Assembly: GCA_026982665.1 (NCBI GenBank)
Contig: JALSGQ010000093.1
Span: forward strand, 1-55,555
Origin: Hyphomicrobiales bacterium
GTDB taxonomy: Bacteria; Pseudomonadota; Alphaproteobacteria; Rhizobiales; Aestuariivirgaceae
Reading direction: 5' to 3'
Length of the DNA: 55,555 bases
The notes below the pieces were generated by a model, which was not told the origin of the DNA, searched no databases, and saw nothing but the letters and a program-made list of their open reading frames with translations. The position numbers and the translations under genes are program-made. Positions 1 to 28,208 of this stretch are shown here, piece by piece; position 1 is the first letter of the stretch, and the number at the start of each line of letters is the position of its first letter.

Positions 1-585
1 GCCTTCATCGCCTTTGGCCTTGCGGCCGCGGGCACACCGGGGCCCAACAACCTCATCCTTGCCAGCATTGCCGCCGGTTACGGGCTGCGCCGGGCGGTGC
101 CGGCCATCCTCGGGGTGTCGCTGGGGTTCTCCTTCATGATTGCCGCCGCCGGGCTGGGGCTGGCCGGGGTGTTCCGGCAATATCCGCAACTGGCCGAAAT
201 CCTCAAGTGGCTGGGCAGCGGCTGGCTGCTGTATCTTGCATGGCGCATCGCCACAAGCCCGGTGGAGCTTGCAGCCAATGAGGCCACAACGGCCAATCCG
301 CCAGGATTCTGGCAGATGGCGGCCTTTCAGTGGGTAAACCCGAAGGCATGGAGCATGGTCATGGCCATGATGGGTGTCTATGCCGGGCGCAATATCGGCT
401 ATCGTGAAGACATGCTGCTGATGGCCGCCATGTTCACCATCATCGGCACCATCACCGCCAGCAGCTGGGCATTCATGGGCACACTTGCCGGGCGGTTGCT
501 GAAGCCGCAACAGCTCCTCTGGTTCAACCGCATCATGGGATTGCTGCTGGCAGCTTCCGTGGTGCTGATGTGGCAAGGGCAGTGA
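1..585 (+). CDS. LysE/RhtB-family amino-acid exporter, 5' truncated by window edge
   Basis: The reading frame is open from base 1, so the start lies outside the window; 194 codons are visible. The visible N-terminal part carries the LysE-family signature TPGPNNLIL followed by a small-residue helix and GLRRAVPAILGVS. Several hydrophobic segments follow, with FQWVNPKAW in the second half, which is typical of the family. The family consists of inner-membrane exporters of amino acids such as lysine, threonine or homoserine lactones; the substrate cannot be told from sequence. An internal ATG at 97 is in frame but would remove the signature, so it is not the start. The gene converges on tgt, with 108 bp between them. 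Confidence 0.88.
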   Translation, partial: AFIAFGLAAAGTPGPNNLILASIAAGYGLRRAVPAILGVSLGFSFMIAAAGLGLAGVFRQYPQLAEILKWLGSGWLLYLAWRIATSPVELAANEATTANPPGFWQMAAFQWVNPKAWSMVMAMMGVYAGRNIGYREDMLLMAAMFTIIGTITASSWAFMGTLAGRLLKPQQLLWFNRIMGLLLAASVVLMWQGQ

Positions 586-1915: not shown

Positions 1916-3205
1916 TCAGGCCAGCAGCGTGCGCTCGAGGAACCACCATGCACCAATCGCTGCCACCACCAGCGATGCCGGCACGGTGATGCGGCTGCGA
2001 TACCATGATTTGTGGCGAAACCACAGCCCCACGGCAAGGAAACACAGGGCAATGACCGCCAGCTGCCCCAGCTCGACACCGATGTTGAAGCCCACCAGCC
2101 CGGCCGTGAAGGCACCCTCGGGCATGCCGATCTCCGTCAGGACGGAAGCAAACCCCAGCCCGTGCAGCAGGCCGAAGAGGAAGATGAGCAGCGGACGCCA
2201 CGCGTAGAGGCGGTCATGCACCATGTTCTCCACTGCCACGTAGACGATGGAAAGAGCAATCAGCGGCTCGACGATGGCAGGTGGGGCGGCAATGTAGCCT
2301 GCCATGGCAAGGCCAAGGGTGATGGTGTGCGCCAGCGTGAAGCTGCTGATCTGCCACAGCAGGCTGCCGATGCTGGCGGAAAACAGGAACAGGCCGACCA
2401 CGAACAGGATGTGATCCATGCCCTTGGGCAGGATGTGCTCGAAGCCCACCACCACGTATTGCCAGAACACGTCCCAGCCGGAAGGCGGCTCGATGCCGTG
2501 CAGCGAAATCGGTGGGCTTTCCTGCCCGGCACGCACCAGTCCGGCAAAGACGTATCCGCCCTTCCCTGCCTGCTGCCCGGATTCCGCGTTCTCCGCGTCC
2601 GTGGCGCTGGCGGTCCTGGTGGCTGCATCTCCGCCATTGGCGGCCGCACCTTGCGGCAGCGCCACGCGCAAGACGATGTCGCCAAAGGTGCGCGGCCAGC
2701 GCCAGGTGAAGGCCTGCGCCGGCAGCGGCAGCCGCGCGTGCAGAACCAGCGTGCTGCTGCGCGCCAGCCGAATATCCCCTACCGGGGGCACCTTCAGGGT
2801 ATCGAACACCAATGGCACGCGCCTGCCATCCACCTTCAGTTCCATGGCACCGATGATCTCCTCGCGGCGCTGCATGAAACGCTCCTGCAAATCTTCCGGC
2901 GGCAGTTTCCGCAAGGCGTTGTATTCCTCGGCCTGCGGCGCATCCTGCGTGTTCTGGTGCTCAGGCCCGATGCCGGCCAGCAGGGCCTCCAGGTTGAGGC
3001 GAATGCGCATGTTCAAGGTTCCATCGGCCTGCACGCGCACATCGGCAATGGCCGGACGCAGCTCATGCGCCTGTGCGGCAGGAGAGAATGCCAGCGACAT
3101 GGCCAGTGCCAGCAACACGGCGGGTGCCATCAGCCACGCCAGCCATGCCATCAGCCACGTCAGCGGATGCATCGCGCCGCTGCATTTCCTTGAAGAAGAG
3201 AGCAT
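1916..3205 (-). CDS. HupE/UreJ-family membrane protein with long exported N-terminal domain
   Basis: The protein has 429 residues. The start at 3205 has a good ribosome site (AAAGG, nine bases upstream). A signal peptide runs to about residue 47 and should be cut at AQA/HELRP, leaving a mature N-terminal histidine. A soluble domain of about 200 residues follows, then a C-terminal membrane domain of roughly seven helices starting with [20 protein letters not shown] and containing [12 protein letters not shown]. These His/Asp motifs are characteristic of the HupE/UreJ family, whose members are thought to move nickel or cobalt. The role here is inferred. The gene is transcribed divergently from an exported DUF4198 protein, a partnership consistent with metal uptake, but no hydrogenase or urease gene is visible. 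Confidence 0.82.
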
Positions 3206-3290
3206 CTCGTTGCGCCTTTCGAGCGTGAGCGGACATGCCTGATCTGCGTGCTGCATGAGACCCCCGGCTTGCAATCTTGTCATGCATGGC

Positions 3291-3304
3291 AAGGAAGTTT
3301 CCTT
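3291..3304. promoter_or_regulatory. Short inverted repeat between divergent metal-type genes
   Basis: AAGGAA-GT-TTCCTT, with perfect six-base arms, lies in the 149-bp gap between the HupE-like gene (-) and the DUF4198 gene (+). Its place midway between two divergent starts suits an operator. No regulator is identified and the site is short enough to be chance. Confidence 0.3.
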
Positions 3305-3354
3305 ATATGATCCGGCCGTGGCGGCAAAAACGAAAAAACGTTCAGGTTGGCGAA

Positions 3355-4371
3355 ATGCGCTTGCATCATGACATGTCCTCTTCATGCACTGGCGGCGATG
3401 ACAAGGCTCTGCAGCCCCCCTTTCAGGCTGCCAGGCAAACCCGCGGGCACGGTGCAGGGCGATTGCTGGCGCTGATGATCCTGCTGGGCGCGCAGGCAGG
3501 CGTCTTCGGCCATCCACAGGCTGCATCTGCCCATGAATACTGGATCGACCCCGTGCAGCCCATTGCCCCGCTGACCGCGCGGCTGACGGCAGATGCACGT
3601 GTCGGGCAGTTCTTCAATGGTGATTCCCTGCCGTGGCTGCCCGATGCCGTGCAGGCGGCGGGCGTGATCGATGCAATGGGCAGACGGCCCAATGCCCGCA
3701 TCATTGGCGACATGCCCATGTTCGATGCCGCCAGCCGGGTGGAGGGCGCACAGATCCTGTTCCTGCAGACCCGGCCGGAGACGCTCACGTGGGACAGCTG
3801 GGAAAAGTTCCTCGCTTTCCTGGAAGAAAAGAAGCTGCATGCCGTTGCCGAGCTGCACCGCCGTCGGGGACTGCCGGACAGCGGCTTCACCGAACACTAC
3901 GTGCGCCATGCCAAGGCGCTGCTGTGGCGCGGGCATGCGGCATCGCCCCCGACGATGCCCGACACAGGCAAGCCGCCGGCAGACAGGGTGCTGGGGCTGA
4001 AGCTGGAGCTGGTGGCGCTGGATGACCCCTTCAACCTGCCAAGGCGGAAGGGCATGCTGCGCATCCGGCTGCTGTGGCAGGGACAGCCACTGGCAAAAAC
4101 GGATGTGCAGGTGTTTTCCCGCCCTGCAGGGCAGCGGGGAGAAGAGGCAAGGCCCCGGCACTTCACCAGCAATGTGGAGGGTATTGTTTCCATCCCCGTA
4201 GAGGCAGGGCGTGATTATCTCGTCAATGCAGTGCACATGGAGCCCGCCTTGCCATCATCCGGCAAGGCGGCGGGCAAGGCAGCAGCCGAGCGAGCCGTCA
4301 ATGACATGCCGGTGTGGGTCAGCCACTGGGCATCGCTTACCTTCACCACGCGAACGGGTAGTGGCCATTGA
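3355..4371 (+). CDS. Exported DUF4198-family protein
   Basis: The protein has 338 residues from the ATG at 3355. The frame is open further upstream, to ATGs at 3307 and 3286, so the start is uncertain; this one puts a basic N-terminus before a hydrophobic segment at about residues 36-58. Cleavage after ASA would give a mature protein starting HEYW. The rest is soluble and has the DUF4198 pattern (HEYWID... near the N-terminus, and a C-terminal beta-rich part with TFTTRTGSGH at the end). DUF4198 proteins often accompany nickel or cobalt transporters and are periplasmic. Divergent transcription from the HupE-like gene supports a shared role. A strong hairpin follows at 4422-4453. Confidence 0.7.
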   Translation: MRLHHDMSSSCTGGDDKALQPPFQAARQTRGHGAGRLLALMILLGAQAGVFGHPQAASAHEYWIDPVQPIAPLTARLTADARVGQFFNGDSLPWLPDAVQAAGVIDAMGRRPNARIIGDMPMFDAASRVEGAQILFLQTRPETLTWDSWEKFLAFLEEKKLHAVAELHRRRGLPDSGFTEHYVRHAKALLWRGHAASPPTMPDTGKPPADRVLGLKLELVALDDPFNLPRRKGMLRIRLLWQGQPLAKTDVQVFSRPAGQRGEEARPRHFTSNVEGIVSIPVEAGRDYLVNAVHMEPALPSSGKAAGKAAAERAVNDMPVWVSHWASLTFTTRTGSGH

Positions 4372-4525: not shown

Positions 4526-5044
4526 TCAGATCTGCACCACGCCGGCGAACACGCAACCGTTTCTTTCCACCACATGCTCGGCGGCGATGCTCTCCATGTG
4601 CGCCACCTTCAGGCCGCGGTTGGCGATCGCCTCCTCGGCCATGCCGCGCACGATTTCTTCCACCTCGGCCTTCGGTGCGGCATCGGAATATTCCATGATG
4701 ACACCGGCACGTTCCGGATCGTCCGGCTTGGCGATGGCAACGGCAGCGGCAATGACCTGCCCCGGCTCGTCGGAACAATACTGGGCATAGGCCGTGGGTA
4801 CCAGCAGGCCCGGTGCAAGCTTCACCGGCTCGATGCGCTTCACCTGCGGGCCGACGATGGAAGACAGGCGCACCAGGTTGACATCGGCAATGCCGGCGCG
4901 CAGCAGCGCCTGGTCGAAGGCCACGAGGCGACGTTCGGCATCGCCATGCCCGGCACACAGGAAATAGGCCCGCGGCTGAAACAGTGCGCGTGCCGCCAGC
5001 TGTGCGACGTCGAGGTTGCTCAGGTCATTGGTGTGGATGTTCAT
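4526..5044 (-). CDS. Pyruvoyl-dependent arginine decarboxylase
   Basis: The protein has 172 residues. Family features seen are VRLSSIVGP at 58-66, the self-cleavage site where Ser61-Ser62 would split the chain and turn Ser62 into the pyruvoyl group, then KLAPGLLVPTAYAQY and GVIMEYS, which carries the conserved glutamate near the active site. The family makes agmatine from arginine, the first step of a polyamine route, without pyridoxal phosphate. It is best known from archaea, chlamydiae and scattered bacteria. The start at 5044 has GGAGG ten bases upstream. No agmatinase or other polyamine gene is beside it, so the route must be completed elsewhere. Confidence 0.88.
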   Translation of the reverse strand: MNIHTNDLSNLDVAQLAARALFQPRAYFLCAGHGDAERRLVAFDQALLRAGIADVNLVRLSSIVGPQVKRIEPVKLAPGLLVPTAYAQYCSDEPGQVIAAAVAIAKPDDPERAGVIMEYSDAAPKAEVEEIVRGMAEEAIANRGLKVAHMESIAAEHVVERNGCVFAGVVQI

Positions 5045-27100: not shown

Positions 27101-27658
27101 CTGACGCATGGCCCAGCGGCGCAGCAGATCGGCCAGCAGGAACAGCCGTGGCAAGGGCGCAATGGCCGGTGGCGGCAATGGCAGGGGTGCAGCTCCGGCT
27201 TCGGCATTGCCCGATGCACCGGTATCGGCAGGCTGCCGCTGCGCAACGTGCACTGCCCATGCATTGCTGGCGGCGCTCAGCAGCAGCTCGTCTTCGTCCA
27301 CATCGCCCAGCGGCAGGATGCGTGGCAGCAGCCGTGCACCGGCGGCATCCCCTTCCAGGTGCAGCATGGCGCTGGCCAATGCACGGGCGGCGCGGCGCGT
27401 GGGCAGATAGATGCGCCAGCCGGCAAAGGCCGGAAACGGCCCGGCCTGCATGCCTTCGTTCAACGCGGCTCCAGCCTCTGCACCCGCATCAGCTGCATGG
27501 GCCCGGTCGGCAGCAGCGCTTCCTGCCCCTGCCCCCACGCCACCATCGGGCAGCCAGCCCAGGCGCATGGCTGCTGCCAGCCGCGCCAGGAAATCGGCAT
27601 CCGGTGGAATGCTGAACACCCGTGGCCGCCGATGTTTCCTGCCTTCGTCCACCGCCAT
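24161..27658 (-). CDS. addB: Double-strand-break repair protein AddB
   Basis: The protein has 1165 residues. It resembles alphaproteobacterial AddB, the partner of AddA in the AddAB helicase-nuclease that processes DNA ends for recombination. Seen: an N-terminal WRIYLPTRRAARALASAML region where AddB has a degenerate helicase domain, a long central part, RLSILGLLEARLLRADRVILGGLNEGIWPE, and a C-terminal PD-(D/E)XK nuclease signature, ADRIDVLADGSLRIIDYKTG (about residues 1020-1040). ATG 27658 with AAGGGGG five bases before it was chosen over an in-frame GTG at 27691. The expected next gene, addA, is absent; queA follows in the same orientation after 220 bp. Confidence 0.9.
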   Translation of the reverse strand: MAVDEGRKHRRPRVFSIPPDADFLARLAAAMRLGWLPDGGVGAGAGSAAADRAHAADAGAEAGAALNEGMQAGPFPAFAGWRIYLPTRRAARALASAMLHLEGDAAGARLLPRILPLGDVDEDELLLSAASNAWAVHVAQRQPADTGASGNAEAGAAPLPLPPPAIAPLPRLFLLADLLRRWAMRQDTGHWRLARHLRAHPGAVWRLARSLARLIDSFENEEVPLDAVARMWLQEPIAPERAEHLQAAQQFLVFLADAWPQALQRRGLMGAAARRAALIRLEAAWLRANPPSAPVIAAGSTGSLPATAELLSTIARLPRGCVVLPGLDVGMDEASWRALAPGHPQYGMRELLRRMEVDRSEVIELPPLEQAAAGGSILHAGGFAGSEPVEASPRVILLREAMRPVETTDEWRQAVRRNRDALRDGAEGLHLLPAPTRRQEALAIALLMRETLRHPRKTCMLITPDRTLARAVRAELARWNIEVDDSAGQPLIDTPGGMFLKLLMQAALEGFSAETLVPLLAHPLACFGMQRHDCAAAAADLELAVLRPLQRRLALDDLPRLARQRQEEVSQGQGAFEHPNVRHMSAGRWQAVQSLAEALQQRLAPLADMFVAGARRSWPVAMLLERLLRVAEDITTPPGESCRLWHGDAGEALAAALAEVFAQSVEATVSAGHAPRQDDVKQNAGAQGTGEPGTAARQATQPVMRAEDLAIFLQTELAARPLRPRHARHARLSILGLLEARLLRADRVILGGLNEGIWPEVAQNDPWLNRADRERLALPLPERRMGLSAHDFVQAAAAGEVWLTCAERVDQQPAEPSRWLVRLQAVLRAAGHDQFLLRQRWPLELAAMLDDPRTDPALMTETARLKPPPPSPAPPLHLRPARISASRVRTLLRDPYAIFARQVLRLEPLPALGTAPTPALFGTLVHAALEEFARRWPRQLPEDPQGELLALLQQMHRAFIGDDAHLAQFAGRFAHMAKSWISRCEVPWRQDAAWQQAHAECAGSVSFEVAGKPFRLTARADRIDVLADGSLRIIDYKTGTLPKRHPASAAHDPQLDLEAAMAMRGAFEAVGDARHVRELVLVRLSGAEDDPLEVDEWHKASSRQRDRRDVATRAEDAWQGLQRLLAAYMDPRQPYLPLDHGNRDQRPGDYDHFNRWREWLPLLAV

Positions 27659-27902
27659 CAATGCCCCCTTGATGCCCCCCGCCCCGACCACGTTTCATGC
27701 CGCGTCAATCAATGCCATCGGCAACATGGCACAGCCCCTGCCGCGGGAAAAGACTGCACTGGCACCCACTGTGCTTCCCGCCTGTCGGAAGCTGCCGATG
27801 CAGCGCTTTGACTTTTCCGACAAGAATACTCAACTAATTTTCAGACACCGGGCATGAGAATCATGCATCCGTTTCGCATCCTGCACAGGAGAGAAGAAAG
27901 TC

Positions 27903-28208
27903 ATGACCACCACCGTGGAACTGCCGCCGCGTGATGCGGACGGATACCTGGAGAACATGAACGACTGGACGCCCGAAATCGGCCGTGCCATGGCGGAAGC
28001 CGACGGCTTCACGCTCACCGACGAGATGTGGGAGCAGATCATGAAGGCGCGGGAGTATTACGAGGAATACAACCAGGTGCCGGCCTTGCGGGTGTTCATG
28101 AAATACATCGGCAAGAAGAAGAAAGAGATGTTCGACATGTGGCAGACCGGGCCGATGAAACCCATCACCAAGTATGGCGGCCTGCCCAAGCCCACGGGCT
28201 GTGTCTGA
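27903..28208 (+). CDS. TusE/DsrC-family sulfur-carrier protein
   Basis: The protein has 101 residues. It carries the family's N-terminal DGYLENMNDWTPEIGRAMA, the central TDEMWEQIMKAREYYEEYN and the C-terminal arm GGLPKPTGCV with the penultimate Cys100 that carries persulfide. The second DsrC cysteine, expected about ten residues earlier, is replaced by Thr (PITKYGGLP), so the protein is TusE-like rather than a dissimilatory DsrC. TusE passes sulfur to MnmA for tRNA 2-thiouridine. TusBCD genes are not next to it. AGGAGAGAAGAAAG precedes the ATG. Confidence 0.9.
   Translation: MTTTVELPPRDADGYLENMNDWTPEIGRAMAEADGFTLTDEMWEQIMKAREYYEEYNQVPALRVFMKYIGKKKKEMFDMWQTGPMKPITKYGGLPKPTGCV

Follow-up and report, generated by a model that had tools for sequence, protein, structure and literature searches.

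Metal capture through a free N-terminal histidine

The systems closest to the locus described here come from a recent study of exported proteins whose mature chains begin with a metal-binding histidine (PMC12537917; Nat Commun 2025). In the so-called 'anglerases', an N-terminal Ang-1 domain fishes for metal and feeds it to a permease domain of the HupE/UreJ-2 type. The Ang-1 domain of RbAng-1a (PDB 9GCE) binds Cu with a Kd of 74 nM and Ni with a Kd of 220 nM via His1 and Asn41, the latter of which is not highly conserved, and the soluble protein IsDUF4198 (PDB 9GCB) holds Ni via His1 and His18 with a Kd of 18 nM (PMC12537917). In a signal-peptide training set, 2.6% of the cleaved proteins have histidine as their first mature residue; the figure is 79% for DUF4198 proteins and 100% for the Ang-1 set (PMC12537917). 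Two adjacent genes for such proteins would be unusual by the first of these figures, but a histidine start is a family trait in both cases. The same study describes each family on its own and names DUF4198 as one of the families prevalent around Ang-1 genes; the sections of it covered here deal with metal binding and do not state a transfer from DUF4198 to Ang-1. Beyond this paper, a literature search found no publication that names both DUF4198 and HupE.

Other members of the DUF4198 family (PF10670) have been met in different settings, including the DUF4198 proteins of PepSY/DUF2271/ApbE clusters, which are described as secreted (PMC8238504), and the products of iron-responsive Caulobacter genes (PMC3751524). 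In Neisseria gonorrhoeae, the zcp transcript is regulated by Zn and by Zur (PMC13343924), and its product is presumably the same protein as the Zcp of PDB entries 9MHI-9MHO, whose titles name Zn, Cu and Co crystals. A mutant entry of this series names the histidines H29, H31 and H142; the literature search found no paper for 9MHI and, for Zcp, just the brief mention in PMC13343924.

The locus considered here lies on contig C93 of a Hyphomicrobiales genome, within a stretch of 55,555 nucleotides hereafter called the window. A preliminary description of this DNA had noted two divergent genes for exported proteins starting with His-Glu and had proposed that a soluble carrier hands metal to a membrane protein. 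This central idea is largely in print already (PMC12537917), and the pair is real, conserved and mostly a known kind of system. Sequence comparison adds that the DUF4198 proteins linked to the permease form a distinct, low-scoring group in which mostly Gln or Glu stands where IsDUF4198 has His18, so this group may use a metal other than Ni.

A divergent pair with counterparts of known structure

Coordinates and families of the two genes had been given correctly: the window carries a HupE_UreJ_2 gene (PF13795; Hup for short) on the minus strand and a DUF4198 gene (PF10670) on the plus strand, each the single match to its family in the whole 2.13 Mb genome. The Hup gene (1916-3205, minus strand, stop codon included) scores 152.2 bits against a cut-off of 24.5 for the transmembrane domain and encodes a predicted signal peptide ending in AQA (3068-3205), a mature N-terminal Ang-1-like beta-sandwich domain of residues 1-191 starting HELRPA (2495-3067) and the HupE/UreJ-2 transmembrane domain (1919-2485). 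Both the two-domain layout and the start of the mature chain, HE(L/V)RPAI, are those of RbAng-1a (PMC12537917). A phmmer search aligned the periplasmic domain with the 9GCE chain from His1 onwards (E 1.1e-14), and the AF2 model of the mature protein (mean pLDDT 90.1, with a low-confidence stretch at about mature residues 141-170) superimposes on 9GCE with a VIA Z of 23.0 and an rmsd of 1.6 over 156 residues (model 1..190, chain 1..157). Further VIA rows for this domain, at Z of about 8-9, belong to ZrgA and PA4063, for each of which there are entries with bound zinc.

In the transmembrane domain, H211, D218, H219, H247 and H302 (mature numbering) are each invariant in an alignment of 52 Hup proteins (the window and 51 further loci). 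The spacing of H211, H219 and H247, 8 and 28 residues, is near the 7 and 28 residues that separate the histidines named as the candidate permease site of MmAng-2a (PMC12537917). The structure-comparison lists held no clear solved match for this domain, which is no evidence of a new fold.

On the other side of the spacer, the DUF4198 gene (3355-4371, plus strand; 73.1 bits against a cut-off of 34) encodes a predicted signal peptide with a long n-region that ends in ASA (3355-3531; the start codon is our choice) and a mature chain of 279 residues that starts HEYWID (3532-4368; AF2 model, mean pLDDT 91.6). IsDUF4198 resembles it in Pfam family, start histidine, acidic second residue and Trp at residue 4 (PMC12537917), as well as in fold: the model matches the Ni-bound chain of 9GCB with a VIA Z of 18.3 and an rmsd of 3.7 over 205 residues (model 1..274, chain 1..213), the IsDUF4198 chain being shorter, at 213 residues. 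The closest solved folds are those of the Zcp entries with Cu, Zn and Co (VIA Z 21.5-22.1, the highest being 9MHM at 22.1), although Zcp shares only 16-17% identity with the window protein. The next row after 9GCB stands at Z 10.3, and rows of complement domains at Z 8-10, which cover residues 124-277, were taken to reflect a common beta-sandwich arrangement. A scan of a collection of genome contigs with the single DUF4198 sequence found no relative, whereas a scan with a multiple alignment (A1) did.

The genes are separated by a spacer (3206-3354) in which a six-base dyad, AAGGAAGTTTCCTT (AAGGAA-GT-TTCCTT, 3291-3304), had been pointed out as a candidate regulator site. The dyad is present, but it is neither beyond chance, with 28% of shuffled spacers holding at least as many such dyads, nor conserved, being found in 0 of 50 related spacers; nothing here supports it as a regulator site. 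The commonest 7-mer, CATGAGA, occurs in 8 of 51 trimmed spacers, against a maximum of 5 after shuffling, and in 9 of 51 untrimmed ones including that of the window. Its position varies and some of the spacers that have it come from close relatives, so it does not amount to a clear motif. More generally, the spacers yielded no conserved motif: the short words that recur in them either come from closely related genomes or lie at varying positions.

Conservation of the His-Glu start

Both chains are predicted to be cut after A-x-A such that the mature proteins begin with HE, as had been proposed (...AQA|HELRPA for Hup and ...ASA|HEYWID for DUF4198; mature starts HELRPAIAD and HEYWIDPV). The best argument for the site is that residue 1 of the solved recombinant 9GCE chain, a histidine, aligns with His1 of the window's Hup (codon 3065-3067, minus strand). 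The 9GCB chain likewise begins at its own His1.

The start histidine, whose loss among homologues would have spoken against the proposal, is kept in 80 of 80 DUF4198 relatives and 54 of 55 Hup partners. These figures refer to the best 80 of 393 relatives returned by an alignment search and are biased to the window's own group. For DUF4198, all 78 rows read from these 80 loci start H1-E2-x-W4, and the printed fragments of the two loci dropped for unknown letters show HEFW; with the window included, His1 (codon 3532-3534, plus strand) is present in 79 of 79 aligned rows. For Hup, 52 of the 55 hits could be read at the loci, with H1 in 52/52 and E2 in 51/52, and His is likewise found in 52/52 rows of the Hup alignment that includes the window. 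Two further hits, missed by the search pattern, print HELNP, and one is unreadable. As the patterns used to find the starts themselves require His, the informative part of these counts lies in their failures, of which there were none for DUF4198 and two for Hup.

By eye, 23 HupE_UreJ_2 proteins that lack a large N-terminal Ang-1 domain (L033-L056, from the sample of the same order described below) also show His after a signal-like stretch, with starts such as HAVAEGDKGY and HGVDTSDAGY; the trait may therefore be independent of the capture domain in HupE_UreJ_2 proteins. Among 30 high-scoring DUF4198 loci, 13 show a start HFQ, again by eye.

A proposed pair for metal capture and import

We read the two proteins as a periplasmic metal-capture and import pair, with a probability of roughly 0.6. 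Hup would act as an anglerase: the free His1 of its periplasmic domain (amine and imidazole) and the side chain of residue 41 would bind a transition metal ion, which the domain would present to the HupE/UreJ-2-type permease. DUF4198 would be a soluble periplasmic binder that also relies on His1, collecting or buffering the same ion near the permease and delivering it to Hup for import. Binding of Cu or Ni at His1 sites of this kind is taken by analogy from the relatives studied in PMC12537917; a shared fold and a shared start do not by themselves establish function. The interpretation offered in the preliminary description thus stands in part: both His1 residues are conserved, solved relatives carry metal on His1 and the genes are linked, whereas the tie to nickel or cobalt is weakened (see below).

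A quite different reading, in which the proteins defend the cell against excess metal or mismetallation by holding periplasmic copper without importing it, draws on the existence of copper proteins with an N-terminal His, such as CopC (PMC12537917). The description of HupE-type domains as permeases for metal capture and uptake (PMC12537917) argues, if weakly, against it, and we consider it very improbable.

Linkage of Hup and DUF4198 extends well beyond the source genome. Divergent Hup–DUF4198 neighbours were found at 53 of the 80 loci, 52 by rule and one (L139) in which a long open frame hides the pair; in two loci Hup lies on the same strand as DUF4198, and at 25 the retrieved sequence, extending up to 4 kb, contains no Hup. 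The divergent pair occurs in records named Hyphomicrobiales and Rhodobacteraceae and in a few from gamma- and deltaproteobacteria. Adjacency is not required, however: among the 25 genomes that lack a neighbouring Hup, 24 have a match elsewhere (one of them partial) and one has none. Neighbours shared by loci of this kind (NUDIX, porphobilinogen deaminase and URO-D) look like the synteny of one group. Fifteen of these loci (L091 and L104 among them) form a single cluster from Marivita and related genomes, in which the DUF4198 gene and a frame of the porphobilinogen deaminase type point towards each other. Searching the PDB with one frame of L003 returned no match.

In 297 sampled genomes from the same order, for which two match tables were compared by eye, the linkage can be assigned to one part of the family. 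DUF4198 matches fall into a high-scoring group (n=70, at least 124 bits) and a low-scoring group (n=19, 73.9-117.2 bits, window included), with four weaker or partial matches (at most 65.5 bits) excluded. Among the listed Hup matches, which leave out the weakest, an opposite-strand neighbour was found for 14 of the 19 low-scoring DUF4198 matches (in two cases the Hup match is truncated where its contig stops) and for 0 of the 70 high-scoring ones. Of the remaining five low-scoring matches, those in G212 and G218 seem to represent other subtypes, a further two are extra copies in genomes where a pair is also present, and the last belongs to a genome whose Hup is on another contig. The window's genus mate (G022) has no match to either PF10670 or PF13795.

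The linked DUF4198 group was found in 15 genomes, every one with a Hup match over the cut-off, while Hup exceeds the cut-off in 94 of the 297 genomes overall. The permease, being common where this DUF4198 is missing, evidently does not need the carrier; the DUF4198 group nearly always comes with a Hup but not the reverse, an asymmetry that suits an accessory carrier. The frequency of Hup without this DUF4198, together with the dispensable adjacency, could also mean that both proteins bind the same metal with no direct passing between them, DUF4198 being an independent periplasmic buffer or sequestering protein that is co-regulated with the permease. The parts of PMC12537917 that deal with the two families, which describe binding and not transfer, fit this alternative too. 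It is harder to reconcile with a divergent linkage that spans several bacterial groups and with the correlated divergence of the two proteins, whose distance matrices across 52 genomes (window included) give r 0.79 against a permutation maximum of 0.16—weak evidence of interaction, as shared species history alone can produce such a correlation. We regard the independent buffer as somewhat unlikely. A cooperating capture and import pair would be a small system, just two proteins and open to experiment, in which a soluble periplasmic metal binder may work together with a permease that fishes for metal.

The second ligand and the identity of the metal

While the predicted histidine start is shared with the solved relatives, the residues aligned with their second ligands differ in the window's two proteins. 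In 9GCB, His18 lies within the motif LLGHP, and the number given in the paper fits a count from His1. Profile alignment places RVGQ of the window protein on LLGHP, making Gln26 (codon 3607-3609, plus strand) the partner of His18, so that, by this alignment, the second Ni-site histidine of IsDUF4198 has no counterpart in the window protein. Across the 79 aligned DUF4198 proteins (the window and 78 loci), this column holds Q 47, E 24, A 2, T 2, S 2, M 1 and H 1. The Hup-linked group instead keeps His109 (codon 3856-3858, plus strand; 76 of 79 rows), the region of which has no clear counterpart in IsDUF4198 in the profile alignment. On the Hup side, Gln41 (codon 2945-2947, minus strand) aligns with Asn41, the second Cu ligand of RbAng-1a. 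Its column in the 52-row alignment reads D 22, N 14, T 5, S 3, A 3, Q 2, E 2 and other 1, with Asp thus the commonest residue of the linked set. Comparison of DUF4198 residue 26 with Hup residue 41 in 52 genomes showed no pattern by eye.

Judged from these alignments, it is possible that each of the two proteins binds its metal through a single N-terminal His together with an amide or carboxylate side chain. A stronger version would be that DUF4198 proteins of the Hup-linked kind form a group of their own in which the second Ni-site His has become Gln or Glu, and that the matched mono-histidine sites serve a dedicated relay from soluble donor to membrane acceptor, probably for copper; we offer this tentatively and think it, on balance, unlikely. 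If true, the sites of carrier and permease would be matched in chemistry, with metal moving between two mono-histidine sites. The replaced second ligand and the group-specific linkage in any case suggest which DUF4198 proteins to pair with Ang-1, and that the metal of those proteins may not be nickel.

Nickel deserves separate consideration: the large subunit of NiFe hydrogenase is matched at three places in the genome, once over its full length and twice in fragments, and a nickel uptake route could serve these enzymes; urease alpha has no match in the genome. The 18 nM Kd of IsDUF4198 for Ni and the naming of HupE/UreJ domains as nickel permeases (PMC12537917) are in keeping with such a role. 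For this pair, however, the tie to Ni/Co transport mentioned in the preliminary description is weakened by several observations. In 71 of the 79 rows, Gln or Glu occupies the position of His18, and RbAng-1a binds Cu more tightly than Ni (PMC12537917). The hydrogenase matches lie on contigs C109 and C110, away from the pair on C93, and C110, which holds two of the three hydrogenase places, also carries a NiCoT-like frame with RHAVEADH (about 27345-28079; L168 1471-2205) that scores 25.6 bits, below the PF03824 cut-off of 27.7. Given this frame on a hydrogenase contig, hydrogenase nickel likely has another route into the cell. A dedicated nickel supply for the hydrogenases is thus distinctly unlikely as the role of the pair.

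For the capture and import pair, the replaced His18, the tighter Cu binding of RbAng-1a and the NiCoT-like route together make us lean, with low confidence, away from nickel alone and towards copper or a mixed Cu/Ni/Zn role. The genome also has two COX1 matches and one match of the CobN/Mg-chelatase type. It has no match to the TonB receptor barrel (PF00593), which, like the lack of a conserved spacer motif, counts against a capture and import pair.

Further features of the genome sequences

Some additional observations were made along the way. The NiCoT-like frame on C110 also has a His-rich loop. In the window, a gene for a pyruvoyl-dependent arginine decarboxylase (PF01862, 132.8 bits; 4526-5044, minus strand) adjoins the DUF4198 gene in convergent orientation. 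Finally, an open-frame translation at L170 10389-11000 contains repeated units resembling HPRVGGEH and IPAWAGNT, suggestive of a CRISPR repeat array translated as if it were coding.
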